This document shows, in pieces, positions 6,563 through 64,000 of a DNA stretch of 64,000 nucleotides. Origin of the DNA: Gammaproteobacteria bacterium. Its GTDB lineage: Bacteria; Pseudomonadota; Gammaproteobacteria; Ga0077536. The notes under the pieces are model-generated. The model was not told where the DNA came from, ran no database searches, and worked only from the letters and a program-made list of their open reading frames with translations. The DNA lies in the NCBI GenBank assembly GCA_016191285.1, contig JACPPA010000004.1, forward strand, positions 62,001 through 126,000, written 5' to 3'. The position numbers and the translations under genes are program-made. Position 1 is the first letter of the stretch. Every line of letters starts with the position of its first letter.

Positions 6563-6565
6563 CCA

Positions 6566-8682: not shown

Positions 8683-8762
8683 GACGCCGAACGTGTCGAT
8701 GCTGAATTGGAGGCGATCGGCCAACCGGCCGGGCGCCATTAACTCGCTCGGCGCCCGCGCCG

Positions 8763-9524: not shown

Positions 9525-9562
9525 GTTGGCTTGCTCCGTTGTTCTATCAGAAGATCGGCCGC

Positions 9563-10202: not shown

Positions 10203-10235
10203 AAGGGAACTCTGCCTTTTGCAGCGGTTCCCTAG
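10203..10235. repeat. hairpin repeat at the 3' end of the Nudix gene
   Basis: GGGAAC-TCTGC, a CTTTT loop and GCAG..GGTTCCC form an imperfect hairpin. The sequence is closely similar to the first hairpin (43731-43757) of the repeat element beside the ExaC-like gene, so it is probably a dispersed repeat. It overlaps the stop codon of the Nudix gene and may serve as its terminator. Confidence 0.55.
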
Positions 10236-10912: not shown

Positions 10913-11027
10913 GATGAGGGAGTATAACGCAGGAATCCTGGGAACCATGCAGACTGAGCCGTGCATTCCACCGGCACCCACGGGACGAATCGGGCTTCGC
11001 GGAATTTTATTCTCTTTGGTCGTCGCG

Positions 11028-11894
11028 TCACCGCGCACAAAGCGGCGCGAAGAATCTAAGCGCCGCGTCGATCACGAACGCCGGCTTCTCTTCAGGGATG
11101 AAATGCCCGCAGTGCTCGACCGAACCGCCGTCCACGTGTTCCGCTACCGCTTCCCAGTAAGGCCGAATATCACCGAGAAAGGTGTCGCCGCCGTAAGCCA
11201 GCACGGGGATAGTCAATTTTTCCGTGGCGGTGGCGAGATTGACGGCGTCTTCGCGAAGTCCCGCGGCGTACCACTGAAACCCAGCGCGGATCGCGCCCGG
11301 AATCGAGTTCACCCGCACGTACTCGGCGATATCTGCTTCGGAGAACACGGCTGGGCTGTAGTTGAAATCGAGCGTTGTGAGGAAGCGGCGCAGGTAGCCG
11401 TCGATATTCTGGCTGACGAGCATCGTCGCCCAGTCTGGGTTACCGCCGTGGAAGAACACGTGATTAATCTTGAGCGCCAACGCGAGCGGGAAAGCATCGC
11501 CGGTCCGGATCAACCCAGGGATCATGTCGAGGATGAACAGCCGCTCCACGAGGTCGCGATTGTCGTACGCGAAATAGAAAGCGATCGCGCCGCCCCAGTC
11601 GTGACCTACCACCGCGACCTTGTCATAGCCTAGCTGGCTCACGAGTTCGCGGACGTCGGCGGCCAATGTGCGCTTGTCGTAGCCGTTCATCGGTTTCTCG
11701 GAATCCCCGAGACCGCGCAGGTCCGGCACGATGACGGTGTAATGCTCAGCCAACGCGGGGATGATTTTCCGCCATTCGTACCAGCTCTGCGGCCAGCCAT
11801 GAAGCAGAACCAGCGGGTAGCCCGCTCCGGCGATCACATAGTGCATCCGGAACCCGTTGATGGTTCGCTGATGATGAGTCCACCTATCGTTCAC
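11028..11894 (-). CDS. alpha/beta-fold hydrolase (epoxide hydrolase / dehalogenase type)
   Basis: The 288-residue protein has the oxyanion motif LLHGWPQ (residues 30-36), an Asp nucleophile in VGHDWGG (Asp99) and the catalytic His in HCGHFIPEEKP (His264). An aspartate rather than serine nucleophile, plus the HGWPQ motif, points to epoxide hydrolases, haloacetate or haloalkane dehalogenases. The start is GTG at 11894, supported by GGAGG about eight bases upstream. It is divergently transcribed from the P450 at 12016, so an oxygenated product of a P450 reaction could be its substrate; that is speculation. Confidence 0.88.
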   Translation of the reverse strand: MNDRWTHHQRTINGFRMHYVIAGAGYPLVLLHGWPQSWYEWRKIIPALAEHYTVIVPDLRGLGDSEKPMNGYDKRTLAADVRELVSQLGYDKVAVVGHDWGGAIAFYFAYDNRDLVERLFILDMIPGLIRTGDAFPLALALKINHVFFHGGNPDWATMLVSQNIDGYLRRFLTTLDFNYSPAVFSEADIAEYVRVNSIPGAIRAGFQWYAAGLREDAVNLATATEKLTIPVLAYGGDTFLGDIRPYWEAVAEHVDGGSVEHCGHFIPEEKPAFVIDAALRFFAPLCAR

Positions 11895-12015
11895 CTTAAG
11901 TACCTCCGCTGTGCGATTTGTTGCGCTTGAATTGCCAAGCGCGGATGTCCACTATGAGCACGGTATCGTGTCACGGTACTGCATCCGTTTGTACATACCC
12001 AACCTGCGCTGGTGA

Positions 12016-13209
12016 ATGATGCAAGACCCCGATCCTTTCGACCGCCTGCACCAAGCCTTCGATATAGCCGATCCCGCTTTCGCCGAAAATTTCGAGAAGG
12101 TCCTCGACAACCTGGTAACGCGCTGCCCGGTGGCGCATAGCGAACTAGGTGCTGGCTATCATGTGTTCAATCGCTATAAGGATGTGCGACGCTGCGGCCA
12201 GAATTGGCGGACTTTCAGCAGTAGTGATGGTTGGATGCTGAATCCACCGGCCGACAACATCAAGATATTGCCGGAAGATCTCGACCCGCCGTATCACACC
12301 GCGTGGCGTCGCGTACTGAACCCATTTTTCACCGCGGAAGCCTTGGTCGCGCTTGAGGACAATGCGCGCGGGTACGCCGCGGATCTAATCGCGCGTTTCG
12401 CGGGCCGGGGAAATTGTGAATTCGTGGCGGATTTTGCGGCCCAACTGCCGGGCCTGATTTTATTCAAACATATTCTCCCGGTGCCGGTTGAGGATCTTCC
12501 TGAGCTCTTCAATGACATCGACATCTACTCGTTTGGCTCGCTGCCCGATCGCACGCCGGCATTCGGACGCGTCTATGCCTATCTCCAGCGATTTCTTGAG
12601 AGTCGCAGCAAGCAAGGCGCACGCGGCGACTTAGTGGATGTGATTCTCGACGGCGTTGAAAAAGAGGGTTCACCGTGTTCGTGGCACGATAAGGTCCACG
12701 TCGCATTGGATGTCGTTTTTGGTGGTCTCGCGACCACCACCCACGCCATGTCGGGTGCGATTTATGTCCTCGCCTCCCAACCCGAGGTGCGTCACGCCTT
12801 ATTGAAGCATCCCGAACAAATGCACACCGCGGTAGAGGAGACCGTTCGACTCTATGCGCCCGTGGTCGCGGTCGGCCGCACGGTGCGTAACGATGTGAAG
12901 GTCGCCGGCGTTGCACTCAAGGCCGGCGCGCGTATTGCGTTGAATTACGCGGCAGCGTCGCGCGATCCGGATGCGTGCACGAACCCGCGGAAGTTCGACA
13001 TCGCGCGCGATGAAGTCGTGCACACCGCGTTCGGGGTCGGCCCACATCGCTGCATCGGCGAACATCTGGCGCGGCTGGAAATTCGGGTTGCTGTCGAAGA
13101 GTTTTTAAAGCAAATCCCAGCGTTCGAACTTAAGCCCGGCACAGAACCTGTCTACGAGAGCGGTCAATTGCGCACCATGAAAAACCTGCATTTACAGTGG
13201 GCCGTATAA
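12016..13209 (+). CDS. cytochrome P450
   Basis: The 397-residue soluble bacterial P450 has the haem-binding signature FGVGPHRCIG with thiolate Cys346, the K-helix ExxR motif in EETVRLYAPV, and an I-helix reading FGGLATTTHA. N-terminal features (CPVAHSELGAGYHVFNRY, DLDPPYHTAWRRVLNPFF) are shared with the P450 at 23717, so the two are paralogues. It needs ferredoxin and a reductase for electrons; none is encoded nearby. The substrate is unknown. The relationship to terpene or steroid P450 families (CYP101/CYP125-like) cannot be settled by eye. Confidence 0.93.
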   Translation: MMQDPDPFDRLHQAFDIADPAFAENFEKVLDNLVTRCPVAHSELGAGYHVFNRYKDVRRCGQNWRTFSSSDGWMLNPPADNIKILPEDLDPPYHTAWRRVLNPFFTAEALVALEDNARGYAADLIARFAGRGNCEFVADFAAQLPGLILFKHILPVPVEDLPELFNDIDIYSFGSLPDRTPAFGRVYAYLQRFLESRSKQGARGDLVDVILDGVEKEGSPCSWHDKVHVALDVVFGGLATTTHAMSGAIYVLASQPEVRHALLKHPEQMHTAVEETVRLYAPVVAVGRTVRNDVKVAGVALKAGARIALNYAAASRDPDACTNPRKFDIARDEVVHTAFGVGPHRCIGEHLARLEIRVAVEEFLKQIPAFELKPGTEPVYESGQLRTMKNLHLQWAV

Positions 13210-13695
13210 GCTGACTTAATGGCTCGCTAAATCAGAGCAGCCACAATCGCCTCCGCAGGGTACTGAAAGCGGTGACGTGCACGCTGCTAGGACTATCGCT
13301 CGGCGAGCTTGCCTGCTTGGCGTCGTCCACCACCCTCGGCGCACCCGCTTTGATGGCGGATGAACCTTGGCTTGCGCTCAACATCGGCGTCCATATCGAG
13401 CGCATCCGCTGACCCGATTGAGTAGGCGACCGCGCGACAAAGTCTGCCGACGAATCTAAGCGGACTCCGGCGCCGGTTATACAAGCCTCAGTGGTTGTCG
13501 CTGGCTCATCCAAGGAATTTAACAATTAGTAAGAAAATTCCGATAGACAGCGCAAACCGGTCGCGCTAGCTTTCGTCCAATCGGCTGGTCCGTCGCCGCG
13601 GTCAATCGCAACAAATGATGCGAATAGCCGCAAGGGCTAGAAAGCGGCTAAGCGATCATTAGCCGACAAGAATTAATAAACAAAAAGGAGGAACG
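13210..13695. other. spacer containing the left end of a segmental duplication
   Basis: From about 13255 to the ATG at 13696 the sequence parallels 18764-19214. It contains the 3' tail of a PIN-toxin gene, a shared 'GACCCGATTGAG..GGCGAC' segment, a shared 'GCGGACTCCGG' segment and an A-rich leader ending in GGAGGAACG. No intact gene is present apart from the remnant noted separately. Confidence 0.7.
13255..13412 (+). pseudogene. 3' remnant of a VapC-type PIN toxin gene
   Basis: In the frame ending at TGA 13410-13412 the translation contains GLSLGELACLAS, TTLGAPALMADEPWLALN and IGVHIERIR. It matches the last 50 or so residues of the toxin at 18524-18913 (GARACLALSATLGAPALTAD...IGVHIECIR). The 5' part is absent, so this is a truncated duplicate. 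It marks the left edge of the duplicated block that also carries the VPLPA-CTERM gene. Confidence 0.85.
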
Positions 13696-15642
13696 ATGAA
13701 CCCGGTAGTCACCCCCCCCCCCCGCGGCTCACGACGACTTCGCATCCTCGCGGCTGCAATTATTGCTAATGGATTTCTAGCAAGTTCGGCACCGGCCGCG
13801 ACCCTGCACTGGCTCACCAGCCCCTCACTGGTCGGCCACGTCACCTTCGATGCCTTTCTCGGGAACAGCGACGATCGCCTATTCAGCGGCATCAATACCA
13901 TCGGGGCGGCGTCATCATTCAGCGCCTCCAATGGTGTTTATGGTTTCTTCCAAGGCACACACACTACACAAGGCCAATCCATTTTTGGCTTACAAGACCA
14001 ACAACTTTTCGGCAGCAATGTCTTTCAGTCGATCACTCTCACGGGCCAGTGGAACTTAAACTCGGCGTTTCGGTTTAATCAGCCATTTTCGCAGAGTTTG
14101 AACACAGCTTCGGCCCATACCCTCACGATCAATCCCGATCAAAGCTACACCGATTCGTTCGTGGCAAACGACGTTGGCTCGGTTAACGGCCGGATTCAGG
14201 TCACCGGCACCGGCCATTACCTACTGAATGGCCAAAACCCGACGTCGCTGTACTCCGGCGACCTCTTGACCCATTTCAACTTCGTTAAGCCGCTGCTCCC
14301 GACCGATTGGCAAGGCGTGGCGCAGGAATCCCAGAGTTGGACGGTATTGGATGGCGCCTTTGCGGGTGTCACTGGGTTTAATACCCTCACGTTTTATTCG
14401 CAGGATTCACTCGCCACGCCGCAACAGCAACCGGTCGCCTTAGGTGCACCATGGGTGACGACGGGGTATGCGGCCGTCCAAGGCGCCTTCCAAGGCGCTG
14501 GTGCACAGATTGGTAGCCCTGCGCCACCCAATGGTCCCGGAAACGACGGCACGGCGAGCTTGTTGTCGGGCTCTACCGCCTCCCTTGCGTTTCTCAATGT
14601 CGGGATCGGTGGTGTCAACGGTGGGGCAGGCGTCGTTACTATCGATGGGGCCGGCACTCAACTGTCTGTCTTGTTTGCTGGGTCAACGGGGATATTTGTC
14701 GGTCACGGCGGCTCATTCAGTGTGAAAAACGGTGCTCATGTCGAGCTCGACGGCACCGGTGGCACGAATAACAACATATCTGTCGAAGCATTCCGTCAAG
14801 ATGCGCAGTTAATAGTCGACGGTGCGGGGAGTGAACTGAGGGTGCATGGGGCAACCGGTAAAAGCTTTATCTCCCCGATCGAAGGCAGCACGGGAAACAA
14901 TTTCGTTTCGATCACGGGCGGCGCTAAAGGCACGATCACTAATGGCGCCAAAATCATCACCGAGGGCAACAACACGTCAGGGATCTTGATTGGCGGCTTC
15001 CCCGGCGGGGGACTACTGTCTTCGGTTGCGGTCGATGGAGCCGGCTCGACACTTGATGCGGGAAGCACATTAGTTGTTGGCTCACACCCCGTTATAACCA
15101 AAGTATTTGGTCCTGGCGATCCAGGCGAACTCGTAGTCCGCAATGGGGGTGTCGCGCAAGCGACAACGATTTATATCGGCACCGATGGCACGGTCAAAGG
15201 CAATGGCGGCACCTTGCAAGGCGCGGTCAATAACCACGGCACCATTGCCCCGGGCGAATCCCCCGGCACACTCACAATTCAAGGCGACTTAGTACAAGCC
15301 GCGGACGGCAAACTCGTCATCGAAATCGGCGGCAACACACCAGGCACTTTGTACGACGTCCTCAATGTCACCGGCAAACTCACCCTCGGCGGCACGCTCG
15401 AAATCGATTTGCTCAATGGCTTTACGCCGGGCCCGAACGACGTTTTTGATTTTCTGCACGCCGGCAGTTTCGCCGGCAGTTTCTCGAATTTCATTCTGCC
15501 AACGTTCGGCAATGGTCAAACCTTGCATCTCAACTTCGGGGCCAACGGCATAAGCGCGCTGAGCGCCGTGCCGCTGCCAGCAGCCGTGTGGCTACTCGGC
15601 TCGGCGCTTGGCGGCCTAGGGTTCTATCGCCGCCGCGCCTGA
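13696..15642 (+). CDS. exported VPLPA/PEP-CTERM surface protein with passenger-like beta repeats (copy 1)
   Basis: The 648-residue protein has an N-terminal signal peptide (ILAAAIIANGFLASSAPAA, residues about 18-36). A long Gly/Thr/Asn-rich beta-type body follows. The part around residues 495-600 (GGTLQGAVNNHGTIAPGESP, TLTIQGDLVQAADGKLVIEI) resembles autotransporter passenger-type repeats. The C-terminus is a sorting tail: VPLPAAVWLLGSALGG plus FYRRR, the VPLPA form of PEP-CTERM. Such tails are recognised by exosortase-type systems and the proteins usually reach the envelope or extracellular matrix. Codons 6-10 form a 12-base poly-C tract. Ribosome site AAGGAGG is strong. A hairpin terminator follows. 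A truncated paralogue lies at 19215 and a tail fragment at 22674. Confidence 0.88.
   Translation: MNPVVTPPPRGSRRLRILAAAIIANGFLASSAPAATLHWLTSPSLVGHVTFDAFLGNSDDRLFSGINTIGAASSFSASNGVYGFFQGTHTTQGQSIFGLQDQQLFGSNVFQSITLTGQWNLNSAFRFNQPFSQSLNTASAHTLTINPDQSYTDSFVANDVGSVNGRIQVTGTGHYLLNGQNPTSLYSGDLLTHFNFVKPLLPTDWQGVAQESQSWTVLDGAFAGVTGFNTLTFYSQDSLATPQQQPVALGAPWVTTGYAAVQGAFQGAGAQIGSPAPPNGPGNDGTASLLSGSTASLAFLNVGIGGVNGGAGVVTIDGAGTQLSVLFAGSTGIFVGHGGSFSVKNGAHVELDGTGGTNNNISVEAFRQDAQLIVDGAGSELRVHGATGKSFISPIEGSTGNNFVSITGGAKGTITNGAKIITEGNNTSGILIGGFPGGGLLSSVAVDGAGSTLDAGSTLVVGSHPVITKVFGPGDPGELVVRNGGVAQATTIYIGTDGTVKGNGGTLQGAVNNHGTIAPGESPGTLTIQGDLVQAADGKLVIEIGGNTPGTLYDVLNVTGKLTLGGTLEIDLLNGFTPGPNDVFDFLHAGSFAGSFSNFILPTFGNGQTLHLNFGANGISALSAVPLPAAVWLLGSALGGLGFYRRRA
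13712..13723 (+). repeat. poly-C tract (12 C) inside codons 6-10 of the VPLPA-CTERM gene
   Basis: Twelve consecutive cytosines encode part of Thr-Pro-Pro-Pro-Arg immediately after the start codon. The paralogue at 19215 has a 10-base tract at the same place. Tracts this long are prone to slipped-strand mispairing, and loss or gain of one base would abolish translation. Confidence 0.85.
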
Positions 15643-15688: not shown

Positions 15689-15815
15689 GATGGAACACTT
15701 TACAGGTTGAGGCGCCGCTAACGCGCTCTACGTTCTCGGCGGCGCTCTCGAGTGATACAGTTCACGGAAGAGAGAAACGACCGGATACAGGGCTCAATAG
15801 GTGAGGTGTTTGGCG

Positions 15816-16079
15816 ATGACTGAAGTAATCGTACAGCTACCGGACGAGTTAGCAGAGCGCGCAAAGAATGCCGGACTCCTATCCGATCGCGCGATCCAGC
15901 GCCTAATCGAAGATGCAATTCGGCGCGAAGCGGGACGCAAACTGCTAAATCTCGCGGATAAAATCCACGCCGCGAACATTCCTGCGATGCGCGACGACGA
16001 TGTTGTTGCCGAGGTCAAAGCGGTGAGGGTCGAACGCCGCGCCCGTCAATTGAAAGGCGATCCGTACGATAACCCGTGA
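15816..16079 (+). CDS. antitoxin of a PIN-domain toxin-antitoxin module
   Basis: The 87-residue protein starts MTEVIVQLPDELAERAKNAG at 15816, a ribbon-helix-helix-like N-terminus. It continues with a charged helical C-terminus (DRAIQRLIEDAIRREAGR) of the kind that wraps a toxin. I preferred ATG 15816, which has GGTGAGG upstream, over the longer frame from 15801. It overlaps the next gene by four bases (GTGA), which implies translational coupling. The exact antitoxin family is not recognisable beyond RHH/VapB-like. Confidence 0.8.
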   Translation: MTEVIVQLPDELAERAKNAGLLSDRAIQRLIEDAIRREAGRKLLNLADKIHAANIPAMRDDDVVAEVKAVRVERRARQLKGDPYDNP

Positions 16080-16498
16080 GAATTGTGCTGGATACGAATG
16101 TCGTTATTTCGGCGTTACTTTGGAATGGCGCACCGTATCGCCTCCTGCGAACGGCAATCGAACGTGATATTGACCTCTATACTTCGCCGATATTGCTAGC
16201 AGAACTACAGCGCGTGATCGGACGCGAGCATTTGGTGCGGCGTCTTGCGCAGCAGAGAATGTCGGTCGAACAAGCGCTTGCCCAATATGCGGAAGCGACG
16301 ATCAGCATCTCGCCAACGATGGTCCCGCAGATCACCCGCGATCCGGACGATGATCATGTTATTGCTTGCGCCCTTGCCGCGAATGTTGACTTCATTGTCT
16401 CCGGCGATAGCGATTTGCTCGATATTGGCACGTACCGCGGCATTCGGATCCTCACCGTCAGCGCAACGTTAGAGCTTACGGGAAGCGGTGAACGCTAG
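16076..16498 (+). CDS. PIN-domain toxin (PIN_3 / COG1569 type), apparently intact
   Basis: The 140-residue protein begins MRIVLDTNVVISALLW (Asp6), has Glu43 in LLAELQRV, an acidic centre RDPDDDHVIACAL (residues 88-100) and GDSDLL at 110-115. All acidic positions expected for a metal-dependent RNase are present. The GTG start overlaps the antitoxin stop. PIN_3 toxins cleave RNA and are neutralised by the upstream partner. Of the PIN toxins in this region it is one of only two whose active-site acids all look intact. Confidence 0.88.
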   Translation: MRIVLDTNVVISALLWNGAPYRLLRTAIERDIDLYTSPILLAELQRVIGREHLVRRLAQQRMSVEQALAQYAEATISISPTMVPQITRDPDDDHVIACALAANVDFIVSGDSDLLDIGTYRGIRILTVSATLELTGSGER

Positions 16499-18059: not shown

Positions 18060-18281
18060 GGCTGTCGGTCCCCTAAATTTTTCATTGCGAGTTCAATTCG
18101 ACGACATCGCGACAGCATATCGAAATCGAGCGAATCCGGGGCAGCCATCGAACTTAGACGACCGGTTTCGGATCTAGATCTGCAATCGTCGATGCGGTTG
18201 GGTTGTTAAAATTCCATCTACCTTGACCGATGGCATTTTAAGCAGCTATTGTCGTTTTGAATCATGAATGGAGTGCAACCA

Positions 18282-18527
18282 ATGCATTCAATGAAAATGT
18301 CAGAAGGTGGTCGAGTTGTCATTCCCGCTGAAATAAGGGCCGCCCTAGAAATTAAAGACGGCGATACGGTGTATTGGGAACTCTTGGCAGGTGAGGCACG
18401 GTTAACCACCAAACAAGCCCGCATCCATCGTGCACAGGAGATTTTCCAACGGCATTTCCCCGTTGGCGGTCCTTTCCAGGCCGATGCGTTAATCGCCGAA
18501 CGTAGGGCTGAGGCAGCGCGCGAATGA
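18282..18527 (+). CDS. AbrB/MazE-type antitoxin
   Basis: The 81-residue protein has a swapped-hairpin AbrB domain: MKMSEGGRVVIPAEIRAALE then IKDGDTVYWELLAGEARL. A helical, toxin-binding C-terminus (FQADALIAERRAEAARE) follows. I chose ATG 18282 because GGAG lies about eight bases before it; ATG 18264 lacks a ribosome site. It overlaps the PIN toxin by four bases (ATGA). It should repress its own operon. Confidence 0.87.
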   Translation: MHSMKMSEGGRVVIPAEIRAALEIKDGDTVYWELLAGEARLTTKQARIHRAQEIFQRHFPVGGPFQADALIAERRAEAARE

Positions 18528-18913
18528 CCGAAGTGGTGATCGATACCTCCGCGCTACTCGCCTGGCTGGGGCAAGAACCAGGGTGGGAGAAAGTCGATCA
18601 CGCCTTTGCGACCAAGACCTGCAAAATCAGCGCAGTGAATCTCGCGGGACTTGTCGCGAAAACCAGTGACCGTATGCACGAGTCAGACGAAATCGCGGCG
18701 ATGGTTTCCGCGCTGCCCGTCGAAATCGTGCCGTTTGATAGGGCGCAGGCGTTTTCCGCGGGAGTACTGAGAGCGGCAACGCGCAATCTAGGACTATTGC
18801 TCGGCGCTCGTGCCTGCTTGGCGTTGTCCGCTACCCTCGGCGCACCCGCCTTGACGGCGGACAAGCCTTGGCTTGCGCTCAACATCGGTGTTCACATCGA
18901 GTGCATCCGCTGA
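18524..18913 (+). CDS. vapC: VapC-type PIN toxin lacking two conserved acidic residues
   Basis: The 129-residue protein has the VapC frame: VIDTSALLAWLGQEPGW (Asp7), SAVNLAGLVAK (residues 36-46), LGARACLAL (93-101) and LTADKPW (110-116, Asp113). Canonical VapC proteins read SAVNLAEV and LGDRACLAL. Here Gly42 replaces the Glu and Ala95 replaces the Asp, so two of four metal ligands are missing. RNase activity is therefore doubtful, although the antitoxin and coupling are intact. Its last 50 codons and downstream flank are duplicated at 13255-13412. Confidence 0.85.
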   Translation: MTEVVIDTSALLAWLGQEPGWEKVDHAFATKTCKISAVNLAGLVAKTSDRMHESDEIAAMVSALPVEIVPFDRAQAFSAGVLRAATRNLGLLLGARACLALSATLGAPALTADKPWLALNIGVHIECIR

Positions 18914-19214: not shown

Positions 19215-20347
19215 ATGAATCAGGTGCTACCCCCCCCCCGCTCACGACTGCTTCGCGTTCTCGCGGCTGCGATCATTGCAAATGGATTTCTGGCGAGCTC
19301 GGCATCGGCCGCGACTTTCCACTTGCTAACGAGCCCGTCATTGAGCGGGCACGTGACCTTCGATGCGTTTCTCGGTAATGCTGACGATCAGGTATTTAAT
19401 GGCATCAACACGATCGGTGCGGCGTCACAATTTAGTGTAATGGGCGGCATTTATGGATTCGTTCAAGGCAGTTTTACTACGCAGGGTCAGTCGATATTTG
19501 GATTGCAAGGCCAACAACTGTTTGGCAGCAATGTCTTTAAATCGGAGAATCTCTCTGGACAGTGGAATCTGAATTCGGCAAGTCTTTTCAATCAAGCGTT
19601 CACCCAGACGCTTGCCGCAACCCCGCCGAACGCATTAACCATCAATCACGACCAGACCTATACAGATTCATTTGTCCTGAACGATACGCTTGCCCAGGGC
19701 AATGTTCAGTTCGCAGGCACTGGTCAATATCTCTTGAGGAATCAAAATGCGGCCGCACTGTACTCGGGCAGTGTACTCACGCATTTCAACTTAGTTACTC
19801 CCCTGCTTCCAAGTGACTGGACAGGGGTCGCACAAGAATCTCAGACGTTTAAAATACTGACAGGGCCTAACGCGGGTTTGACCGGGTTCGCTACGGTCAC
19901 ATTAACGGCACGGTAAAGGGCAATGGCGGCACCTTGCTAGGTACCGTTGAAAACCACGGAACGATTGCACCCGGAGAATCCCCAGGCACGCTGACTATTC
20001 AAGGCGACTTAGTACAAGCCGCAGACGGCAAACTCGTGATCGAAATCGGCGGGACAACGCCAGGCACTTTGTACGATGTGCTGAACATCACCGGCAAACT
20101 CACGCTCGGCGGCACCTTAGAAATCGATTTATTGAATGGCTTCATACCGGGTCCAAATGACGTATTCAATTTCCTGACGTTCGGAAGCTTCGATGGCAGT
20201 TTCGCGAACATTATTTCGCCGCAATCCTTGCATCTCAACTTCGGCCCGAACGGCATCACCGCTGCGAGCGCAGTGCCGCTGCCGACCGCGGTGTGGCTAC
20301 TCGGCTCAGCCCTCGGTGGCCTTGGGTTCTACCGCCGCCGCGTCTGA
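19215..20347 (+). pseudogene. VPLPA/PEP-CTERM protein, internally deleted and frameshifted (copy 2)
   Basis: The first frame (19215-19916) encodes 233 residues closely parallel to copy 1: the same signal peptide (VLAAAIIANGFLASSASAA), then FDAFLGNADDQVFNGINTIG. It stops soon after GLTGFATVTLTAR. A second frame (19934-20347) resumes with NHGTIAPGESPGTLTIQGD and ends in VPLPTAVWLLGSALGG and FYRRRV. Compared with copy 1, about 780 bases of the body are missing. The join falls in GGCACGGT, present at the matching place in copy 1, and shifts the frame. As it stands only a secreted protein without its sorting tail would be made. Confidence 0.87.
19230..19239 (+). repeat. poly-C tract (10 C) near the start of VPLPA-CTERM copy 2
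   Basis: Ten cytosines encode Pro-Pro-Pro and the first base of Arg, codons 6-9. The position corresponds to the 12-base tract in copy 1. The two lengths differ by two, but surrounding codons differ too, so both copies are in frame. Confidence 0.85.
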
Positions 20348-22802: not shown

Positions 22803-22935
22803 CTCTGTCGAGTGAATTGCGCCGAAAGCCGCTATAGCTCAACGTGCGTCAGCTAAGTTCACCGAGGGACGTTCCCTGTGCGCGATGCGCCAAACCGCAG
22901 TTGTAGAATTCGGACACCGTCAGTCCGAGACGCTG

Positions 22936-22975
22936 ATTTTCAGTCGGCTAGTCGATACACTGGTCTACTGAAAAT
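22936..22975. promoter_or_regulatory. inverted repeat upstream of the Phd/VapC module
   Basis: ATTTTCAGT (22936-22944) and ACTGAAAAT (22967-22975) form a perfect 9-bp inverted repeat with a 22-base spacer, ending 19 bases before the antitoxin ATG. It could be an operator for the Phd-type repressor or a transcript hairpin. Confidence 0.45.
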
Positions 22976-22994
22976 TGCTAGTGCTGAAGAAATC

Positions 22995-23237
22995 ATGAAG
23001 ATCGAAATTGGTTCGTACGAAGCGAAAACCAAGCTCCCTGAATTGCTGCGGCAGGTAAAAACCGGCAAGAGCTTCACGATCACTAATCGTGGGGAGGCCA
23101 TTGCGGATCTGGTGCCTAGCGCGGGGGTGAGAGCGAAAGACAAAGTTGCAGCGGCAGAAAGACTCAAGGCGTTCATGCTGGCCGATCCTGTGCGTGGAGC
23201 AAACATCAAGAAACTCATTGAGGACGGGCGCGCGTGA
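22995..23237 (+). CDS. Phd/YefM-type antitoxin
   Basis: From ATG 22995 the 80-residue protein reads MKIEIGSYEAKTKLPELLRQ and continues VKTGKSFTITNRGEAIADLV, the Phd/YefM fold signature. Its C-terminal helix (RGANIKKLIEDGRA) should bind the toxin. The longer frame from 22878 lacks a ribosome site and was rejected. It overlaps the toxin gene by four bases (GTGA). Confidence 0.87.
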   Translation: MKIEIGSYEAKTKLPELLRQVKTGKSFTITNRGEAIADLVPSAGVRAKDKVAAAERLKAFMLADPVRGANIKKLIEDGRA

Positions 23238-23653
23238 GTTTCGTCCTTGATAATTCGGTGACCATGCGTTGGTTTTTTGGCGATGGAAAGACACAGGAAC
23301 TTGCCTATGCCAGCAAAGTGCTTGATGCGATGAAAAACACCAACGCACTTGTACCCGTGACATGGGGACTAGAGGTGGCAAACGTTATCGCCAAGGCGGA
23401 AGCTAAAGCCTTGGTGACGGAAGCGCGAAGTGGGGCGTTTCTTGAATTGCTCGAAGGCATGGATGTTGAGGTGGATTCGGCCACCTTCGCACACGCGCTA
23501 TCGGATACGCTCCAACTGGCGCGACGATACAAGCTGTCTGCGTACGCTGCCTCCTATCTCGAACTGGCCTTAAGATCAGGCCTACCGTTGGCCACGCTCG
23601 ACGAAGATTTGCAGAAAGCCGCGAAAAAAACCGGAGTAAAGAAATTTGTCTGA
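23234..23653 (+). CDS. vapC: VapC-type PIN toxin with one conserved Asp replaced by Ala
   Basis: The 139-residue protein reads MSFVLDNSVTMRWFFGD (Asp6), then VTWGLEVANVIAKAE (Glu47), LSAYAASYLELALRSGLP (residues 101-118) and LATLDEDLQKAA (Asp123). Family members normally have 'SAYDA.YLELA'; here Ala105 stands where the third metal-binding Asp should be. GTG start overlaps the antitoxin. Reduced or lost RNase activity is likely. It is the second PIN toxin in this region with such a loss. Confidence 0.86.
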   Translation: MSFVLDNSVTMRWFFGDGKTQELAYASKVLDAMKNTNALVPVTWGLEVANVIAKAEAKALVTEARSGAFLELLEGMDVEVDSATFAHALSDTLQLARRYKLSAYAASYLELALRSGLPLATLDEDLQKAAKKTGVKKFV

Positions 23654-56074: not shown

Positions 56075-56863
56075 ATGTTGGTTCCACATCTCGACGAGTA
56101 CGCCAAGAAATATCAACATATCAAATTCAAGCGCGAGGATGGCATCCTTGAGGTCACCCTGCACAGCGATAATCGCGACTTGGTCTGGGGCTTCGCACCC
56201 CATCAGGAGTTAGGGTACTGCTTCGCCGATATTGGCTGCGATCCCGACAACAAGATCATCATCTTCACCGGCTCGGGTGACACCTTCATTCACAAGGAAG
56301 ATCTCGGCGGCGGCAAGGTAGACGCCAAAACCTGGGCCGAGCACGTCCTGCCGGATGCCAAACGGCTGCTGATGAATCTGCTCGAAATCCAGGCGCCGAT
56401 GATCGCCGCGGTGAATGGCCCGGCCACTGTACACGCCGAACTTGCCCTGCTGTGCGATATCGTGCTCGCCGCCGATCATTCGGTGTTCCAAGACGCGCCG
56501 CATTTCCCCAGCGGCTTAGTGCCAGGTGACGGCGTACATATCGTGTGGCCGATGTTGCTCGGATTAAACCGCGGGCGTTATTTTCTAATGACCGGGCAAC
56601 AATTGTCCGCACAAGAAGCCCTGAACCTCGGCGTGGTTAACGAAGTCATGCCACAGGCTAAGCTACTGGCGCGCGCCTGGGAGCTTGCAAAAATCATCCG
56701 CCAACGACCGGCACTGACGGTGCGCTTGACCCGTGAAGCGATGCTGCAACAAGTCAAACGCGCGATGCTCGATCACCTACCGTATGGACTCGCGCTCGAA
56801 GGATTGGCCGCGTGCGATTATTGGCCGGATAAATTTGCAGCGGCGGATATCTCGAAGCGTTGA
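56075..56863 (+). CDS. 6-oxocamphor-hydrolase-like crotonase (beta-diketone hydrolase)
   Basis: The 262-residue protein is crotonase-fold but lacks typical enoyl-CoA hydratase glutamates. From memory it aligns closely with Rhodococcus 6-oxocamphor hydrolase: [57 protein letters not shown] and [20 protein letters not shown]. Trp38, His120, His143, Asp152 and Glu242 correspond to OCH Trp40, His122, His145, Asp154 and Glu244, each offset by two. OCH cleaves a C-C bond in a bicyclic beta-diketone without CoA. AAGGAG precedes the ATG. With the BVMO gene opposite, it suggests alicyclic or terpene-ketone degradation. Confidence 0.85.
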
Positions 56864-57049: not shown

Positions 57050-57085
57050 TTTAATCAAGCGGAAAGCCTATATAGTTTGATTAAA
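57050..57085. promoter_or_regulatory. inverted repeat upstream of the fic-methylase-TIR operon
   Basis: TTTAATCAA (57050-57058) and TTGATTAAA (57077-57085) form a perfect 9-bp inverted repeat with 18 bases between, about 50 bases before the fic start. It is a strong candidate operator, possibly bound by the winged-helix C-terminus of the Fic protein. Confidence 0.6.
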
Positions 57086-57134
57086 ATGGGCTTTAAACGC
57101 AGTATCCAGCGTTCAGTGGCGATGAGGAACAGTA

Positions 57135-58304
57135 GTGCAACGAGAAGCTGGCAACTACGTCGAAGCCTATATTCAGCATTTGAAAGCACGCGCTTTCATC
57201 CCGTATCCACTTCCACCACAACCGGCCATTGAGTGGACGCCGACGCTAGCCGCGCTTCGCGATGAAGCCAATCAGTGTCTTGGCAGGCTTGACGGCATCG
57301 CCCGGGTTCTGCCGGAGAAGCATCTCTTCCTCTATCAATACGTGCGCAAGGAAGCGGTGCTTTCGTCCCAGATCGAAGGCACGCAGTCGTCACTTCGCGA
57401 TCTGCTGATGTTCGAGCTCGATGAGGTGCCAGGCGTTCCGATGGACGACGTGCGAGAAGTATCGAACTATGTGGCCGCGTTGGATCATGGAATGGAACGG
57501 ATCCGTCGCGGTGAGCGGACGATTTCCCTGGGACTGCTCCACGACATGCACGCTATATTGCTGCGTGATGGTCGCGGGGTCGACAAATCGCCGGGGCGCT
57601 TGCGCGATCGTCAGGTCTTCATCGGTAGCGCCAATCCACCGCGCATCACCTTCGTACCTCCGCCGCCGGATCACGTCGAGCTTTGCCTGACCCAACTCGA
57701 CGCGTTCCTAAACAATAGTCCCGAGCACACGCCGGCGCTGCTCAAGGCTGCGCTCGCGCACGTTCAGTTCGAAACTATCCATCCCTATCGCGACGGCAAC
57801 GGCCGCCTTGGCCGTCTCTTAATCACGTTACTGCTCTGCGCAGAAGGCGCACTGTCCGAGCCGCTGCTTTATTTAAGTCTTTATTTCAAGCAGAACCGCA
57901 GCGCTTACTACGATCAGTTGCAGCGCGTGCGGACGCATGGCGACTGGGAAGCATGGCTCGAATTTTTCTTGGTTGGAGTTCGCGATACTGCGCAGAGCGC
58001 GGTCAAAGCCGCCGAGCGCATGCTGAATCTGTTCCGCGTCGATCGTGAACGTATTCAAACGCTCGGCCGTGGCGCGGGCTCGGCGTTGCGAGTACATCAG
58101 CTATTGCAGCAACGCCCCGTGCTCTCGATTCCTAACGCGGCCACGCGACTTGCGATGAGCTGGCCCGCCATCGACAAGGCCGTGCGCGCGCTCGAAAAGC
58201 TAGGGTTACTGCGCGAGTTCACCGGCAAGAAGCGAAACCGCCTGTACCTTTACGATGCGTATTTTGAAATTCTTACCGAGGGCACGGAGCCGCTACCGCG
58301 CTAA
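57135..58304 (+). CDS. fic: Fic-domain protein (AMPylator type) with N-terminal inhibitory helix and C-terminal winged helix
   Basis: Fic enzymes transfer AMP or related groups to target proteins. The 389-residue protein has the N-terminal Fic_N region with the inhibitory motif SSQIEG (Ser77 to Gly82, S/TxxxEG). The catalytic loop HPYRDGNGRLGR (216-227, His216) is complete. A C-terminal winged-helix-like part follows (LLQQRPVLSIPNAATRLAMS and AIDKAVRALEKLGLLREFTG). All active-site residues are intact. GTG start follows GAGGAAC. It is first in a four-gene operon with a methylase, specificity subunit and TIR protein. Fic genes are known passengers of type I R-M loci. A toxin or regulator role here is inference. 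Confidence 0.92.
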   Translation: MQREAGNYVEAYIQHLKARAFIPYPLPPQPAIEWTPTLAALRDEANQCLGRLDGIARVLPEKHLFLYQYVRKEAVLSSQIEGTQSSLRDLLMFELDEVPGVPMDDVREVSNYVAALDHGMERIRRGERTISLGLLHDMHAILLRDGRGVDKSPGRLRDRQVFIGSANPPRITFVPPPPDHVELCLTQLDAFLNNSPEHTPALLKAALAHVQFETIHPYRDGNGRLGRLLITLLLCAEGALSEPLLYLSLYFKQNRSAYYDQLQRVRTHGDWEAWLEFFLVGVRDTAQSAVKAAERMLNLFRVDRERIQTLGRGAGSALRVHQLLQQRPVLSIPNAATRLAMSWPAIDKAVRALEKLGLLREFTGKKRNRLYLYDAYFEILTEGTEPLPR

Positions 58305-58328
58305 CGACTACTACGAAGGAAACGCCTG

Positions 58329-60334
58329 ATGTTGATTGCAGAGTTGCTCGCCGGATCGAAGAACCTGAGCCTTGCGCTCTTTCCAGACGATACGGTGAAG
58401 AAGGTCGAGTCGCGTTTCGCGCTCAAGAACAACAAACCGGTCATTGAGTGTTTCGTGCGGCGTAAGCAGGTTCCTGCGAAGCCCGAGGAGCTGGTGCGCC
58501 AGTTGCTCATCGCTCATCTGAACTTGCACTTCGGCTACGATCTTGGCCGCATTGCGGTCGAGCATCCCATCACTTTCGGGCGCGATTCATCTAAGCGAGC
58601 CGACATCGTGATCTTCGACGCCGATCGCCCCACGGTCCCCTACTGCATCATCGAAGTGAAAGCACCCCACTCAAGGGCGGCAAAGACCAGCTCAAGAGCT
58701 ATGCGCACGCCACCGGCGCACCGCTGGCGCTATGGTGCAACGGTGCTGCGCCAGTGATTTGGCATCGCAAGAATCCGAACTACTTCGTCGAAATTCCCGA
58801 CCTCCCCACCGCCACACAGACCATCGAGGACGTTGCCGGCCAGCCCTGGACCGTTGATACGTTGATCGAAAAGGAAGAGGCGCGCGCCGTAGACGGGCTA
58901 AGGGCCCGCTCACTGCGCCAGCTGATTGAAGACATGGAAGACGAAGTGCTGGCTAATGCCGGCGTCGATGTATTTGAGGAAGTTTTTAAACTCATCTTCA
59001 CTAAGCTTTACGACAAACTCGCCTGTTACTCCGGTCGTTACAAATACCTACGTTTTCGCAACCAGAACACCGCCGCCCAGCTTAAGGCTAGCATCCAGAG
59101 CTTGTTCGACGACGCCACAAAGAAATGGCCTGGTGTGTTCAGCGAGGATGAGCGCATCAAGCTCACACCGGAACATCTGATGGTCTGCGTCGGCTCGCTG
59201 GAGGAATGGAAACTGTTCAACTCCAACCTCGATGTCATCGATGACGCCTTCGAATATCTCGTCAATCAATCCGCGAAGGGCGAGAAGGGCCAGTACTTCA
59301 CGCCGCGCTGGGTCATCGATCTTTGTGTGAAGATGCTCAATCCGCGCGAGCACGAAACCTTGATCGACACCGCCGCTGGCTCCGCAGGTTTCACCGTCCA
59401 CGCTATCTTCCACGTCTGGCGTCAAATACTCGATGACCTCAAACGCCCGCAAAGCCATCTGTTCACGATGGAAAAGAAGCCCGGGCGCTGCATCGACTAC
59501 GTTGAGGACAAAGTCTTCGCAATCGACTTCGACGAAAAGAGCGTACGCGTTGCCCGTTGCCTCAATTTGATTGCCGGTGACGGCCAGACCAACGTCCTTC
59601 ACCTGAATACCTTGGATTGGACGCGCTGGGACGAGACCACCGACGAAGATTGGCGAGATACCTACGGTGCTGGCTGGGCCCGACTGCGCAAGCTCCGGAC
59701 AAACAAGAAGGACTACCGGAACTTTCAGTTCGACATACTAATGGCGAATCCGCCGTTTGCCGGCGACATCAAGCAGAGCGATCTGCTCGCGCCCTACGAA
59801 TTGGCCCACAAGCGCGCCAAGGACGGCGGTCAGGGCAAGCTCGAAAGTGCGGTGGGGCGCGACCTGTTGTTCATCGAACGCAATCTCGATTTCCTGCGCC
59901 CCGGCGGTCGCATGGCGGTGGTGCTGCCGCAGGGCCGGTTCAATAACTCCAGCGATCAGCGCGTGCGCCAGTTTATCGCCGAGCGCTGCCGCATCCTCGC
60001 TGTTGTGGGTCTACATCCCAACACCTTCAAGCCGCACACCGGCACTAAAACCAGCGTACTTTTTGTGCAGAAGTGGAACGACGACCAGAACCTCGGCCCG
60101 CTCTGCCCGAGAGTTGATGATTACTCGATCTTCTTCGCCACGCAGCGCAAGGCATCCAAGGACACCAGCGGTGACCATCTGCTGGCGAAGGAAGCGGAGG
60201 GAAACCTGCTGCGCGATACTCATGGCCACTATGTGGTGCAGCACGATTTCTTCAACCACGACGGTATGACCGAAGATGGAATCGCCGAAGCTTTTGCTGA
60301 GTTCGCCGCGAAGGAGCGCTTAAGTTTTTTTTGA
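58329..60334 (+). CDS. N6-adenine DNA methylase with N-terminal HSDR_N-type nuclease-like domain, one frameshift
   Basis: The first frame (58329-58757) reads LVRQLLIAHLNLHFGYDLG, ADIVIFDADRPTVPYC and IIEVKAP, a PD-(D/E)XK-like HSDR_N_2 domain. It then loses frame. The -1 frame continues KGGKDQLKSYAHATGAPLAL, WCNGAAPVIWHRK and joins the second frame (58754-60334) with HsdM features: KGEKGQYFTPRWVIDL, SAM motif LIDTAAGSAGF and catalytic MANPPFAG. The break is at the C run in GCACCCCACTC (58663-58671) and fits a one-base loss. Repaired, the protein would be about 668 residues, resembling type IIB (BcgI-like) fused R-M subunits. The second frame has a GTG overlapping the first stop, so separate translation is also possible. 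Confidence 0.86.
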
Positions 60335-61803
60335 GTCGCCCCTTCGACGCAAGCCGCTATGCGCGATTGTTGGAGGGGCTGGAGATTACAGAAATAAAAT
60401 TGAACGCAATCAACGCTGAAATCCGTATCGAAGCTGAGTTTTTCCGGAAACGATATATCCATGAAAGCACCGCACTTGCACGCTTACCTAGCCTCCGGCT
60501 AGGTGAATTTTCAGCTGTTACAGACGGCCCGCATGGGTATCACGAGGTAGACGATTCGTCACCAATCGCGATGCTCACAGCGAAATCTGCGTCAGACTGG
60601 TTTACAACTCAAGTCGGTGCGGATCGCATAGCAGCTAGAGTTGATGAAGTAAACAAGCGATCCCGCCTCGTGGAGCGCGACGTTGTGCTTTCTACGCGAG
60701 GGACAGTTGGAATGTGTGCGCTTGTTACTTCGGAATCTTTACCCGCCAATATCGACCAAGACATCGCGAGAATTTCGTGGGCTGACAAGAAATCGCTCAA
60801 ACCCGAATACGTAGTAGCGTACCTAAATTGTCGTTTTGGTCAGCACCACATCTCTCGTCACGCTTCCGGAATGGTGCAACAGGGTCTTTCGCTTGCTAAG
60901 GTTCGTGAAATTCCAATACCCAGATGTAGAGATGCCGTTGAAAACACTGTAGCCGACTTTGTGTTTATGGCGTTAAGTGCACGCCGTCAGGCTTATGTAG
61001 ATCTCAATAACGCGGAAAATGCCCTCACCGCCGCCCTCGGCATCGCCGACTGGCAGCCGCCGGAGCCTCTGACTTACACGCGCCGCGCTTCGGAAGCGTT
61101 TACTGCATCTCGGTTTGATGCAGAGTTTTTCCATCCCGCCAAACAAAGCTATATGAACCGATTGAGCGCGCTACCCGGAGAGCCGCTTGGCGACCACTAT
61201 GCCTCTGTGCGCGAGATGTTCGACCCCATTAAAGCGGGAGCGGACGAGCGGGTCCGCGACTTTGATTTAACCGATGCCCTGCAACCGGTTCTCGACGATC
61301 AGCGTGAACCGATGCCGGCGCGAGAGGTTGGTAGTACGAAAAAGCGGTTCAAGGCGGGAGACGTTGTCACATCAAGGCTTCGGGCCTATCTACGCGAAAC
61401 CGCGCTAGTTCGCACCTCATCGAGTGTGCCAAGCGTAGGGTCCTCGGAGTTCATCGTTCTGCGGCCAACGAAGGCAGAGTCTCCGCCACTGAGTCGCGCG
61501 TGCCTCCTGACATTCCTTCGATCACGCCCGGTGCAGACGATACTGCACTGGTCACAGGATGGCTCGCATCACCCACGTTACGGTGACGAAGACCCGCTGA
61601 GCATCCCGGTTCCCCATGTAGTCTGCTCAGTATCATCGGAAATCGATGTTCTGTTCGAAAAGGTGTTGACCGCACGGGGTCGAGCCCGTGACTTTCTAAC
61701 CGCCGCCCAACGCGCTGTCGAGATCGCCATCGAAGACTCCGAGGCTGCGGCGCTGGCCTATCTCGCTGAACGGACCGACAATCTAAAAGCGACGAGGTAC
61801 TAA
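60331..61803 (+). CDS. hsdS: two-domain DNA specificity subunit (HsdS-like)
   Basis: The 490-residue protein has two target-recognition halves. The first covers about residues 35-215, including IAMLTAKSASDWFTTQV, VVLSTRGTVGMCALV and PANIDQDIARI, with GMVQQGLSLAKVREIPIPR. The second starts near FTASRFDAEFFHPAKQSYM (about 253-272) and ends with GDEDPLSIPVPHVV. Helical spacers separate them (VFMALSARRQAYVDLNNAEN). This is the HsdS plan. The TTG start overlaps the methylase stop by four bases. No HsdR gene is in the window; any cleavage would need the methylase's N-terminal domain. Confidence 0.88.
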   Translation: MSRPFDASRYARLLEGLEITEIKLNAINAEIRIEAEFFRKRYIHESTALARLPSLRLGEFSAVTDGPHGYHEVDDSSPIAMLTAKSASDWFTTQVGADRIAARVDEVNKRSRLVERDVVLSTRGTVGMCALVTSESLPANIDQDIARISWADKKSLKPEYVVAYLNCRFGQHHISRHASGMVQQGLSLAKVREIPIPRCRDAVENTVADFVFMALSARRQAYVDLNNAENALTAALGIADWQPPEPLTYTRRASEAFTASRFDAEFFHPAKQSYMNRLSALPGEPLGDHYASVREMFDPIKAGADERVRDFDLTDALQPVLDDQREPMPAREVGSTKKRFKAGDVVTSRLRAYLRETALVRTSSSVPSVGSSEFIVLRPTKAESPPLSRACLLTFLRSRPVQTILHWSQDGSHHPRYGDEDPLSIPVPHVVCSVSSEIDVLFEKVLTARGRARDFLTAAQRAVEIAIEDSEAAALAYLAERTDNLKATRY

Positions 61804-61806
61804 CGT

Positions 61807-62766
61807 ATGGCAACCGTCTTCATTTCTTATTCCCATACGGACGAAGCACTGCGCGACGAGTTGGAAGTCCATCTGTCGATGCTCAAACGCGAGGGCGCAA
61901 TTGAGACCTGGCACGACCGCCGCATCCTCGCTGGTGATGAGCTAGACGGTACCATCGACGCCAAGCTGGAAATCGCGGAAGTGATTTTGCTGTTGGTCAG
62001 TCCCGACTTCCTCGCCTCGAACTATTGTTACGATGTAGAAGTCCAGCTCGCGATGGCCCGGCATGAAGCGAATACCGCTCGGGTCATTCCAGTGATCCTG
62101 CGTCCCTGTGATTGGCAGTCAAGTGTCGCACCTTTCAAGAAGCTACTGGCTGCGCCGCGCGATAGTGTGCCGATCACCAAATGGCCAAATCGCGATGAGG
62201 CTTTTCTCGATGTGGTGACGCAGATTCGCGCCGCACTGCCCATTGCAAAGCCATTGAAGCGGGAACCGATGCGCGAATCGCGCTCAGGTGTGGACCCGGT
62301 TGCCGAGATTCCTCGTTCAAGCAATCTCCGATTGAAAAAGACGTTTACGGAGGTCGATCGTGATCACTTTATCGAGGAGGCTTTCGAATACATGGCGCGG
62401 TTCTTCGAGAAGTCCCTCGACGAACTGGCAGCCCGCAATGCCGGCATCGAAGTGCGTTTCCGACGCATCGACGGCAATGCCTTTGGTTGTGTGGTTTACC
62501 AAAATGGCCAGGCTGTCGCACGGTGCGGTGTCAGACAGGGCGGATCGTCGCGCTCTTTCGGTGGCGGTATTACGTATTCCCAAAACGACTCCGCGCCGGC
62601 CAATAGTTACAATGAGAATCTGAGTGCGGAGGCTAATGACCAGTCCCTGTTTTTGCGACCGATGGGAATGGGAATGCTCGGTCGCGCGGCTAGCGACAAT
62701 CACATGAGTTTCGAAAGTGCGGCAGAATATTACTGGTCGCTGCTCGTCGACCCGCTTCAGCGATAG
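61807..62766 (+). CDS. TIR-domain protein with an unassigned C-terminal domain
   Basis: The 319-residue protein starts with a TIR domain (residues 1 to about 145): VFISYSHTDEALRDELEVHL, WHDRRILAGDELDGTID, VILLLVSPDFLASNYCYDVE with the candidate catalytic Glu78, and VIPVILRPCDW. After a linker, residues about 170-319 form a domain I cannot name (DRDHFIEEAFEYMARFFEKS, RRIDGNAFGCVVYQNGQAVA, a Gly/Ser-rich loop and the tail MSFESAAEYYWSLLVDPLQR). Bacterial TIR effectors often cleave NAD+ in anti-phage defence. It starts three bases after hsdS and is clearly the last gene of the operon. No sensor, SAVED or STING domain is seen. Confidence 0.86.
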   Translation: MATVFISYSHTDEALRDELEVHLSMLKREGAIETWHDRRILAGDELDGTIDAKLEIAEVILLLVSPDFLASNYCYDVEVQLAMARHEANTARVIPVILRPCDWQSSVAPFKKLLAAPRDSVPITKWPNRDEAFLDVVTQIRAALPIAKPLKREPMRESRSGVDPVAEIPRSSNLRLKKTFTEVDRDHFIEEAFEYMARFFEKSLDELAARNAGIEVRFRRIDGNAFGCVVYQNGQAVARCGVRQGGSSRSFGGGITYSQNDSAPANSYNENLSAEANDQSLFLRPMGMGMLGRAASDNHMSFESAAEYYWSLLVDPLQR

Positions 62767-62860: not shown

Positions 62861-64000
62861 TTAATCAAAAATCCTACATACCTCAACCAGATTATCCGAG
62901 AAGCTCGGCGCATGCCCCATGTCGACGAATTCGGCCGAACTGATGATGTTTACGGTGCCTTGGTTCAACTGCCGCCAGTAGCCTAGAGTCGCGACGATGA
63001 GGCCAGCGTTCACATCCATGGTGATCTGCGCCGCGCCTTCGAAGCTCCCGCGATCGTTAAACACGCGCACAGTGTCGCCTTCATTGATGCCGCGTGGTTT
63101 CGCATCCGCAAGGTTGATAAGGACAAATTGCTCGCCTTGGCCTTTGATTTTTTGCTCCATGTTGGCGTAACACGAGTTTAGAAAACCGTGGCTCTTCGGC
63201 GACACGATATTGAGCGGATATTTCTTCGCGAGTTCGGGATTGGTCAGCGGCGTCTCGCGCGATGGGACATAATCCGGTAGATCGTCCAGCGGTTCGCCGC
63301 CTTGCTGCGCTTCGTACATCTGCCGAAACGGACCGGCGACGAAATTGCCGTTGGCCGCGAGGCTGGATTTGAATTCACACTTGCCAGACGGCGTTGGAAA
63401 GTTACCTTGGCGATGCGGGGCACGATCGTCGGCGCCGCCGATGTTGAGATGGACGAAACCGTGTTGCCGCAGATAAGCCAGATCAAATCCGCGACACGCG
63501 GGCGCGGCCCAGTCAATGTAATGCGCCAGGCACTCGGCGTCCGACCATTTAAATTGCGCATCCGTGAAACCCATGCGGGCCGCGAGGCGACGAAAGATTT
63601 CGTAATTAGAAAGCACTTCGCCGGGAGGCTCGACGCACTTTTCATTATAGGTAAGGTAGTTGTGCCCCCATGACAGAATAATATCTTCCATCTCGGCGCC
63701 CATCGCCGCCGGCAGCACGATATCGGCGTAGCTCGCTGTGTCTGAAATAAAATGATCGGCGACAACCAAGAATAAATCCTCACGCAGCAAGCCCTGCACG
63801 ACCTTGTCGGATTCCGGGGCTTGCGTCACCGGATTGGAATTCCAACACATCATCGATTTAATCGGCGGGTCCATCGGAATTTGGTTGGTCAGATGACGGC
63901 CGATTTGCAGATTATTGATAACGCGCGTGCCCGGCGGGATCCAATCCGGCCGGCAAATCACCTCGAACTTATACGGATGTTCCCACACCGGCATCGCCAG
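62861..64000 (-). CDS. molybdopterin oxidoreductase, C-terminal 379 residues (gene runs off the window)
   Basis: This is the C-terminal half of a DMSO-reductase-family molybdenum enzyme. It shows MMCWNSNPVTQAPESDKV then FLVVADHFISDTASYADIVL and PAAMGAEMEDIILSWGHNYL, then the dinucleotide-binding C-terminal domain (VSPKSHGFLNSCYANM, GDTVRVFNDRG, LGYWRQLNQGTVNII). The frame is open to base 64000. The iron-sulfur and active-site residues lie beyond the edge, so the substrate cannot be judged. It is distinct from FdsA. It converges with the TIR gene, 94 bases between stops. Confidence 0.9.
   Translation of the reverse strand: MAMPVWEHPYKFEVICRPDWIPPGTRVINNLQIGRHLTNQIPMDPPIKSMMCWNSNPVTQAPESDKVVQGLLREDLFLVVADHFISDTASYADIVLPAAMGAEMEDIILSWGHNYLTYNEKCVEPPGEVLSNYEIFRRLAARMGFTDAQFKWSDAECLAHYIDWAAPACRGFDLAYLRQHGFVHLNIGGADDRAPHRQGNFPTPSGKCEFKSSLAANGNFVAGPFRQMYEAQQGGEPLDDLPDYVPSRETPLTNPELAKKYPLNIVSPKSHGFLNSCYANMEQKIKGQGEQFVLINLADAKPRGINEGDTVRVFNDRGSFEGAAQITMDVNAGLIVATLGYWRQLNQGTVNIISSAEFVDMGHAPSFSDNLVEVCRIFD

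Follow-up and report, generated by a model that had tools for sequence, protein, structure and literature searches.

Known systems related to the locus

Toxin genes have been described within restriction-modification (R-M) operons. In EcoprrI, the gene of the anticodon nuclease PrrC lies inside a type IC R-M operon and acts as a second line upon R-M failure, as described in PMC3710099 and PMC3874165. In HEPN, R-M and DOC neighborhoods, R-M genes are joined by a toxin of the Fic/DOC type and by one more toxin gene, an arrangement proposed as a three-level defense (Anantharaman et al. 2013, PMC3710099). BcgI-like enzymes consist of a nuclease-methylase (RM) fusion and a specificity (S) protein, both required for cleavage and modification (PMC3874165). 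Here, we analyzed a locus at positions 57050-62766 of a 64,000-nucleotide stretch of a gammaproteobacterial genome (assembly GCA_016191285.1, contig JACPPA010000004.1, positions 62,001 to 126,000; hereafter the window), in which a Fic gene, an RM gene, an S gene and a TIR gene follow one another on the + strand.

The original prediction had taken these four genes for a fixed defense unit. As a fixed unit the foursome did not hold up in relatives; in spirit the interpretation survives, with the Fic and TIR families each recurring inside R-M operons, and with other likely toxins or nucleases behind the S gene in some relatives. That HEPN and DOC/Fic toxins serve R-M systems as further weapons had, moreover, already been proposed (PMC3710099). 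We favor, at about even probability, the reading that the locus is a modular R-M operon in which the position behind the S gene (the post-S slot) is exchangeable and is filled here by the TIR gene, with the Fic gene placed in front. The variable gene behind S is a more promising observation than the foursome, and the claimed four-gene system matters less because it is not conserved.

Compared with the described systems, the window resembles EcoprrI/PrrC in having a toxin-type gene within an R-M operon, but its gene encodes a TIR protein rather than a HEPN/ABC nuclease, hsdR is missing, and the coupling is putative. It resembles the HEPN, R-M and DOC neighborhoods in joining R-M genes to a Fic/DOC-type toxin and a further toxin, whereas TIR replaces the RloC-like ABC-HEPN protein and the R-M part is a predicted RM fusion plus S. 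Like BcgI and BsaXI, it has a separate S subunit and no HsdR, together with nuclease and methylase domains that are predicted to belong to one RM protein (PMC3874165); unlike them, it has an N-terminal domain of the HSDR_N_2 type, a frame break in the RM gene, and additional TIR and Fic genes. The literature searched, which covered few subscription papers, yielded no account of an operon of the RM-S-TIR or Fic-RM-S-TIR type.

Conservation of the RM-S pair and of the foursome

A scan of a collection of species genomes gave 125 loci with a homolog of the methylase (M) gene. The best 80, chosen by short conserved peptides, were kept; this choice favors close relatives, and the loci do not represent independent lineages. 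Among these, the closest relatives of the methylase piece at 58754-60334 are 81% identical to it. At least 1.5 kb of sequence was present upstream of M in 65 loci, behind S in 66, and on both sides in 57. The RM-S pair is conserved, as a same-strand S match was found in 72/80 loci and lay within 500 nucleotides (nt) of the end of M in 64/80, and this conservation is one of the grounds for the modular reading.

The two accessory genes behaved differently from this pair. Neither of the TIR domains searched for was found at any of the 80 M loci, so that RM-S-TIR did not recur among them. A Fic match was present at two loci and adjacent at neither: at L055 (30% identity) an open reading frame (ORF) intervenes, and at L091 (28%) the match is 7 kb away. 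TIR and Fic were also missing from the 10 loci of a phylum sample (two of which, L168 and L169, repeat the contigs of L019 and L045), from three viral contigs, and from the two closest plasmids, which were the ones viewed of 224 records with an M match. Among the 58 genomes of the relatives set, the window's own included, that genome was the only one with the TIR gene or with an M match over the full length. Seen from the other side, TIR homologs adjoin other genes in relatives, and the window-type M-S pair was beside none of the 24 TIR homologs whose neighborhoods were viewed. The fixed four-gene defense system was therefore rejected.

The gene behind the S gene

In 38/62 scorable loci, S is followed on the same strand by an ORF whose start lies within -30 to +60 nt of the S stop codon. 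The remaining 18 of the 80 loci were set aside (eight without an S match, nine with less than 900 nt behind S, and one with an unclear S end). These ORFs are mechanical calls, some of the short ones of which may not be genes. Because so many loci have a packed ORF behind S, and because these ORFs are of different kinds, the slot appears to be exchangeable. In the window, the slot is occupied by the TIR gene, which starts 3 nt behind S.

The most frequent post-S ORF belongs to an unnamed family of ~265 amino acid residues, with a match behind S in 26/80 loci (for example, L030:11089-11901). An R-x4-H-G motif (R238, H243), along with W, D, F and N positions, is invariant in all 24 aligned members. 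No credible match to this family was found in Pfam (three members searched), or in PADLOC or NCBIfam (two members each). A structural model of the protein had a predicted local distance difference test score (pLDDT) of 90.9. Foldseek returned nothing at an E-value of 0.001 for this model, with no HEPN-named entry among the matches listed, and VIA-align against solved structures gave a best Z of 6.4 that covered only residues 122-196. The motif is thus what suggests that the family may be HEPN-like, and we flag the family as a defense candidate. A homolog behind S was also seen on a Klebsiella plasmid and on two of three viral contigs, the third of which ends at this point.

Other proteins encoded behind S matched NERD, zeta toxin, GmrSD, Bro-N, DUF4365 and NucS/DUF5655. 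The NucS/DUF5655 gene lies 116 nt behind S in L055 and overlaps S in L073. A SIR2 assignment of the third gene of L018 found no support; this ORF had no match, and it is the next ORF that matches SIR2 weakly (best E-value 0.0008).

The RM and S genes and the frame break

The RM gene lies on two ORFs in different frames. The first piece (58329-58757, + strand, 142 residues) carries an HSDR_N_2 (PF13588) domain of the PD-(D/E)XK type, and the second (58754-60334, + strand, 526 residues) is an N6-adenine methylase (PF02384) with a GTG start; the two overlap by four bases, with the GTG lying over the TGA. The original prediction of a methylase with an N-terminal nuclease was right about the two domains, which are both present, and wrong in placing them on a single ORF. 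Likewise, the head-to-tail packing it described has the correct spacings (24, -4 and 3 nt), with two ORFs standing where one methylase gene had been counted.

A single PADLOC methyltransferase model of 672 positions matches both pieces (positions 7-128 and 149-669), and both halves fall within one ORF in 69/80 relatives, a count of ORF span, with frame continuity seen in the alignment and not separately counted. The other 11 relatives comprise four without a detectable N-terminal half and seven that are split or partly covered in mechanical ORF calls. Since one model and one ORF in most relatives span both halves, the sequenced copy has, judged from these alignments, a frame break, which lies between ~58,660 and ~58,680. 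The Asp and the E-x-K of the PD-(D/E)XK domain are located in the first piece, and the conserved QLxSY stretch downstream (QLKSY in the window) is in the other frame. The break may be genuine or a sequence error; correspondingly, restriction may be lost with the nuclease half out of frame, or may be intact in the organism. Even with a real break, the methylase half could still be made by re-initiation at the overlapping GTG.

A real break would fit a decaying R-M remnant, in which the nuclease is dead, an M-S methylase is made by re-initiation at GTG 58754, and the Fic and TIR genes are leftovers. This reading draws on the contrast between the two frames of the sequenced copy and the single spanning ORF of 69/80 relatives, and on the first piece retaining its D and E-x-K while the next conserved stretch has moved to the other frame. 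We nevertheless consider decay unlikely. No break is seen in the ORFs of Fic, S and TIR, and the other Fic gene in this genome (the C19 paralog) is, like RM, split in two frames, which fits assembly indel errors as well as it fits decay.

The S gene (60331-61803, + strand, 490 residues, TTG start) overlaps the RM gene by 4 nt. Its product matched PADLOC Specificity_I (E-value 9e-27) and, below the cut-off of that model, an NCBIfam MAD5-like family (6e-30); no Pfam match was found. Among solved structures, RM.BsaXI is the best match (E-value 8e-20), with the alignment restricted to the methylase part. The M-S pair thus appears to have the layout of BcgI and BsaXI (type IIB, multimeric type IIG), in which a nuclease-methylase fusion is accompanied by a separate S protein; enzymes of this class cut either side of a bipartite site and assemble as (RM)2S. 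Given this layout, the absence of HsdR is expected and needs no new principle. No HsdR helicase-nuclease was found in the operon, and the genome's ResIII helicase matches all lie outside the window; HsdR-type helicases are present elsewhere in the genome, at least one of them in a complete type I set.

Two other class assignments were rejected. A classical type I system (HsdRMS) does not fit, as HsdR is absent and the HsdM N-terminal domain PF12161 was missing from both M pieces at an E-value of 0.1; this domain is present in the HsdM of contig C19 of the same genome. The best NCBIfam matches of M and S are MAD2-like and MAD5-like, which points to MADS (methylation-associated defense system), but both score far under the curated cut-offs (279 vs 720 bits for MAD2 with the second M piece, and 104 vs 400 bits for MAD5).

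The TIR protein and the neighborhoods of its homologs

The TIR gene (61807-62766, + strand) encodes a protein of 319 residues with a ThsB-class TIR domain (PF13676, E-value 1.8e-15) and a C-terminal domain of ~150 residues. The PADLOC ThsB1/ThsB model PDLC00420 covers residues 1-319 (5.4e-125), and the S-x-YC-x3-E signature of the window protein is retained in 18 aligned homologs. The C-terminal domain was not assignable from an AlphaFold model made without an alignment, which had a pLDDT of 45.

The full-length match to ThsB raises the question of a Thoeris-like system, where the TIR protein would make a cyclic nucleotide signal for a ThsA encoded elsewhere in the genome. The likeness is that of the whole protein to a single model, and the name rests on that library. 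In contrast to Thoeris, no ThsA-like gene lies in the operon or directly beside it, and the window TIR keeps the company of R-M genes. A search of the genome for a STALD domain was also empty, a weak negative since the control of this search gave no signal either. We regard a Thoeris-like function as very improbable.

The 24 neighborhoods of full-length TIR homologs comprised nine genome loci and 15 plasmid records, the latter taken from a set of 48 by passing over near-duplicates. L149, which has the TIR domain only, was left out, and L008, L141 and L146 have less than 2 kb on one side. Two of the TIR loci lie near a distant HsdM-type methylase with a weak match to the window methylase (24-27%). 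In one neighborhood (L148, genome G254, contig C11), a gene of the window's TIR family follows hsdS at a distance of 2 nt and shares 4 nt with hsdM, within an operon (3186-13321) that encodes HsdR (EcoEI-type), HsdS, TIR, HsdM, a McrB-like and a McrC-like protein; the ThsB model matches this TIR protein too. The search for TIR relatives in viral contigs gave a single short match. Of note, plasmid cassettes of a helix-turn-helix gene, a reverse transcriptase gene and a gene of the same TIR family were observed in L005, L006 and L254. The reverse transcriptase of L005, the sole one of the three that was scanned, matched retron type VI best in PADLOC.

The Fic protein and its predicted operator

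The catalytic loop of SoFic-type class II Fic proteins is HxFx(D/E)GNGRxxR, and their inhibitory motif is (S/T)xxxE(G/N). The Fic gene (57135-58304, + strand, GTG start) encodes a protein of 389 residues with Fic_N (PF13784) and Fic (PF02661) domains and a C-terminal region resembling a winged helix, for which Pfam gave only a sub-threshold match (HTH_24, 0.0099). When aligned with four homologs, it has an intact catalytic loop, HPYRDGNGRLGR (with Y in place of F), and an intact inhibitory motif, SSQIEG, as had been predicted. The Fic, S and TIR genes are likewise, as claimed, each an intact ORF with family matches. The Fic protein matched PADLOC SoFic at 1.7e-113, a model without a stated cut-off, and missed the NCBIfam SoFic equivalog cut-off (134 vs 550 bits).

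Upstream of this gene, the inverted repeat TTTAATCAA-18 nt-TTGATTAAA was confirmed at 57050-57085; it appeared in 0 of 100 shuffles, with the pattern having been defined post hoc. Comparable repeats were present upstream of 20 of 24 Fic genes, the window's included. The control was run with mononucleotide shuffles and then repeated with dinucleotide shuffles, which gave a mean of 4.9 and a maximum of 10. These repeats are also present where no R-M gene follows. Operon-level control of defense by the repeat was rejected, since such repeats are common upstream of Fic homologs generally. The repeat is most likely the predicted operator of the Fic gene itself, bound by the protein's own C-terminal winged helix. 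By eye, many of the regions upstream of the Fic homologs L231-L249 and L196-L199 have two or three half-sites resembling TTATTTTA or TTATTTAAGC, in alternating orientation and ~30 nt apart. This pattern suggests an operator logic common to the Fic clade of the window.

A Fic paralog in the same genome, 60% and 50% identical over its two pieces, lies within an hsdM-hsdS-fic-hsdR operon (L230, G000:C19:96000-108000, 1389-9211), where fic is the gene in two frames. Outside the window, 4/24 Fic neighborhoods run into R-M or defense genes within 100 nt; two of the 24 terminate at a contig end. The neighbors are the genes of HsdR (L230) and of the Hachiman protein HamA (L197), one that matches a methylase (L249) and, by eye, one resembling S (L236). 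In L197 (Aminobacter plasmid pAA04, 4970-11372), the Fic gene was seen 10 nt ahead of hamA and a helicase gene; a divergent TIR gene beside this Fic gene has no significant similarity to the window TIR.

Weighing of the modular reading

The association of the accessory genes with R-M is indicated by the TIR gene 2 nt behind S in G254, the Fic paralog inside hsdM-hsdS-fic-hsdR and the Fic gene ahead of hamA. The Fic-type operators and the precedents of the RM-S layout and of PrrC (PMC3874165) also speak for the modular reading. Several observations weigh against the modular reading. No packed third ORF was found in 24/62 scorable RM-S loci, and RM-S-TIR did not recur in the samples described above (0/80 loci, 0/10 of the phylum sample, 0/3 viral contigs and 0/2 plasmids). 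Contig ends cut part of the flanks, so that 57/80 loci were covered by at least 1.5 kb on both sides. The frame break puts the nuclease in doubt. Only one of the 24 TIR homologs is embedded in an R-M operon, whereas three follow a reverse transcriptase gene and the others have different surroundings, and TIR may thus need no R-M partner.

The main rival is that independent defense genes share a transcript without functional coupling: RM-S would restrict, TIR would sense its own trigger, and Fic would be a separate toxin-like or housekeeping AMPylator. We find this plausible, but less likely than the modular reading. It agrees with the lack of TIR at the RM loci, with TIR homologs that in most of the 24 neighborhoods are alone or near retron-type reverse transcriptases or unrelated genes, and with most Fic homologs having no R-M genes behind them. 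It accounts less readily for genes that overlap or are spaced by 3-24 nt throughout the operon, for TIR standing directly behind S a second time (G254), and for the further Fic gene that this genome has within an R-M operon.

Under the modular reading that we favor, the S protein would select the site, and the methylase domain would mark host DNA there. The N-terminal PD-(D/E)XK domain would cut unmarked DNA, provided that the frame is intact. The TIR protein would form a second line, most likely by consuming or converting NAD+, once the R-M complex is at work or has been put out of action. By analogy with PrrC beside EcoprrI, it may be held or triggered via the R-M complex. The Fic protein would be an AMP-transferase that inhibits itself. 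Its gene would have a separate operator, to which the C-terminal winged helix of the protein most likely binds, and the Fic promoter would drive the genes behind it.

A more far-reaching form of this proposal, which we regard as doubtful, is that the BcgI-like RM-S pair is a widespread chassis for exchangeable suicide effectors encoded behind S, held by the enzyme and released upon a block of restriction. The slot would usually contain an undescribed RNase with the R-x4-H motif (HEPN-like), in other loci a nuclease or kinase, and in the window the ThsB-class TIR. Of the versions seen here, that of the window would be the first with a TIR, and the autoregulated Fic gene in front would act as a third weapon and master switch.

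If the slot is real, second-line effectors are built into this branch of R-M systems. Exchanging them would then directly test how toxins are guarded by R-M complexes, a question studied so far on the example of PrrC.

Flanking genes and other observations

On the left, the operon is flanked by an enoyl-CoA hydratase gene (56075-56863, + strand), and on the right by a molybdopterin oxidoreductase gene (62861-63994, - strand). A close homolog of the molybdopterin gene was found in two of five other members of the genus, but on its operon side the DNA similarity did not extend past this gene, so that no synteny of the insertion site was seen in these members.

Elsewhere in the window, three pairs of small genes (15801-16498, 18264-18913 and 22878-23653) resemble VapBC by eye, with an antitoxin and a PIN-domain toxin in each. 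The ORFs 13696-15642 and 19215-19916 have, also by eye, a near-alike N-terminal, leader-like stretch, which suggests a duplicated gene with one copy shortened.

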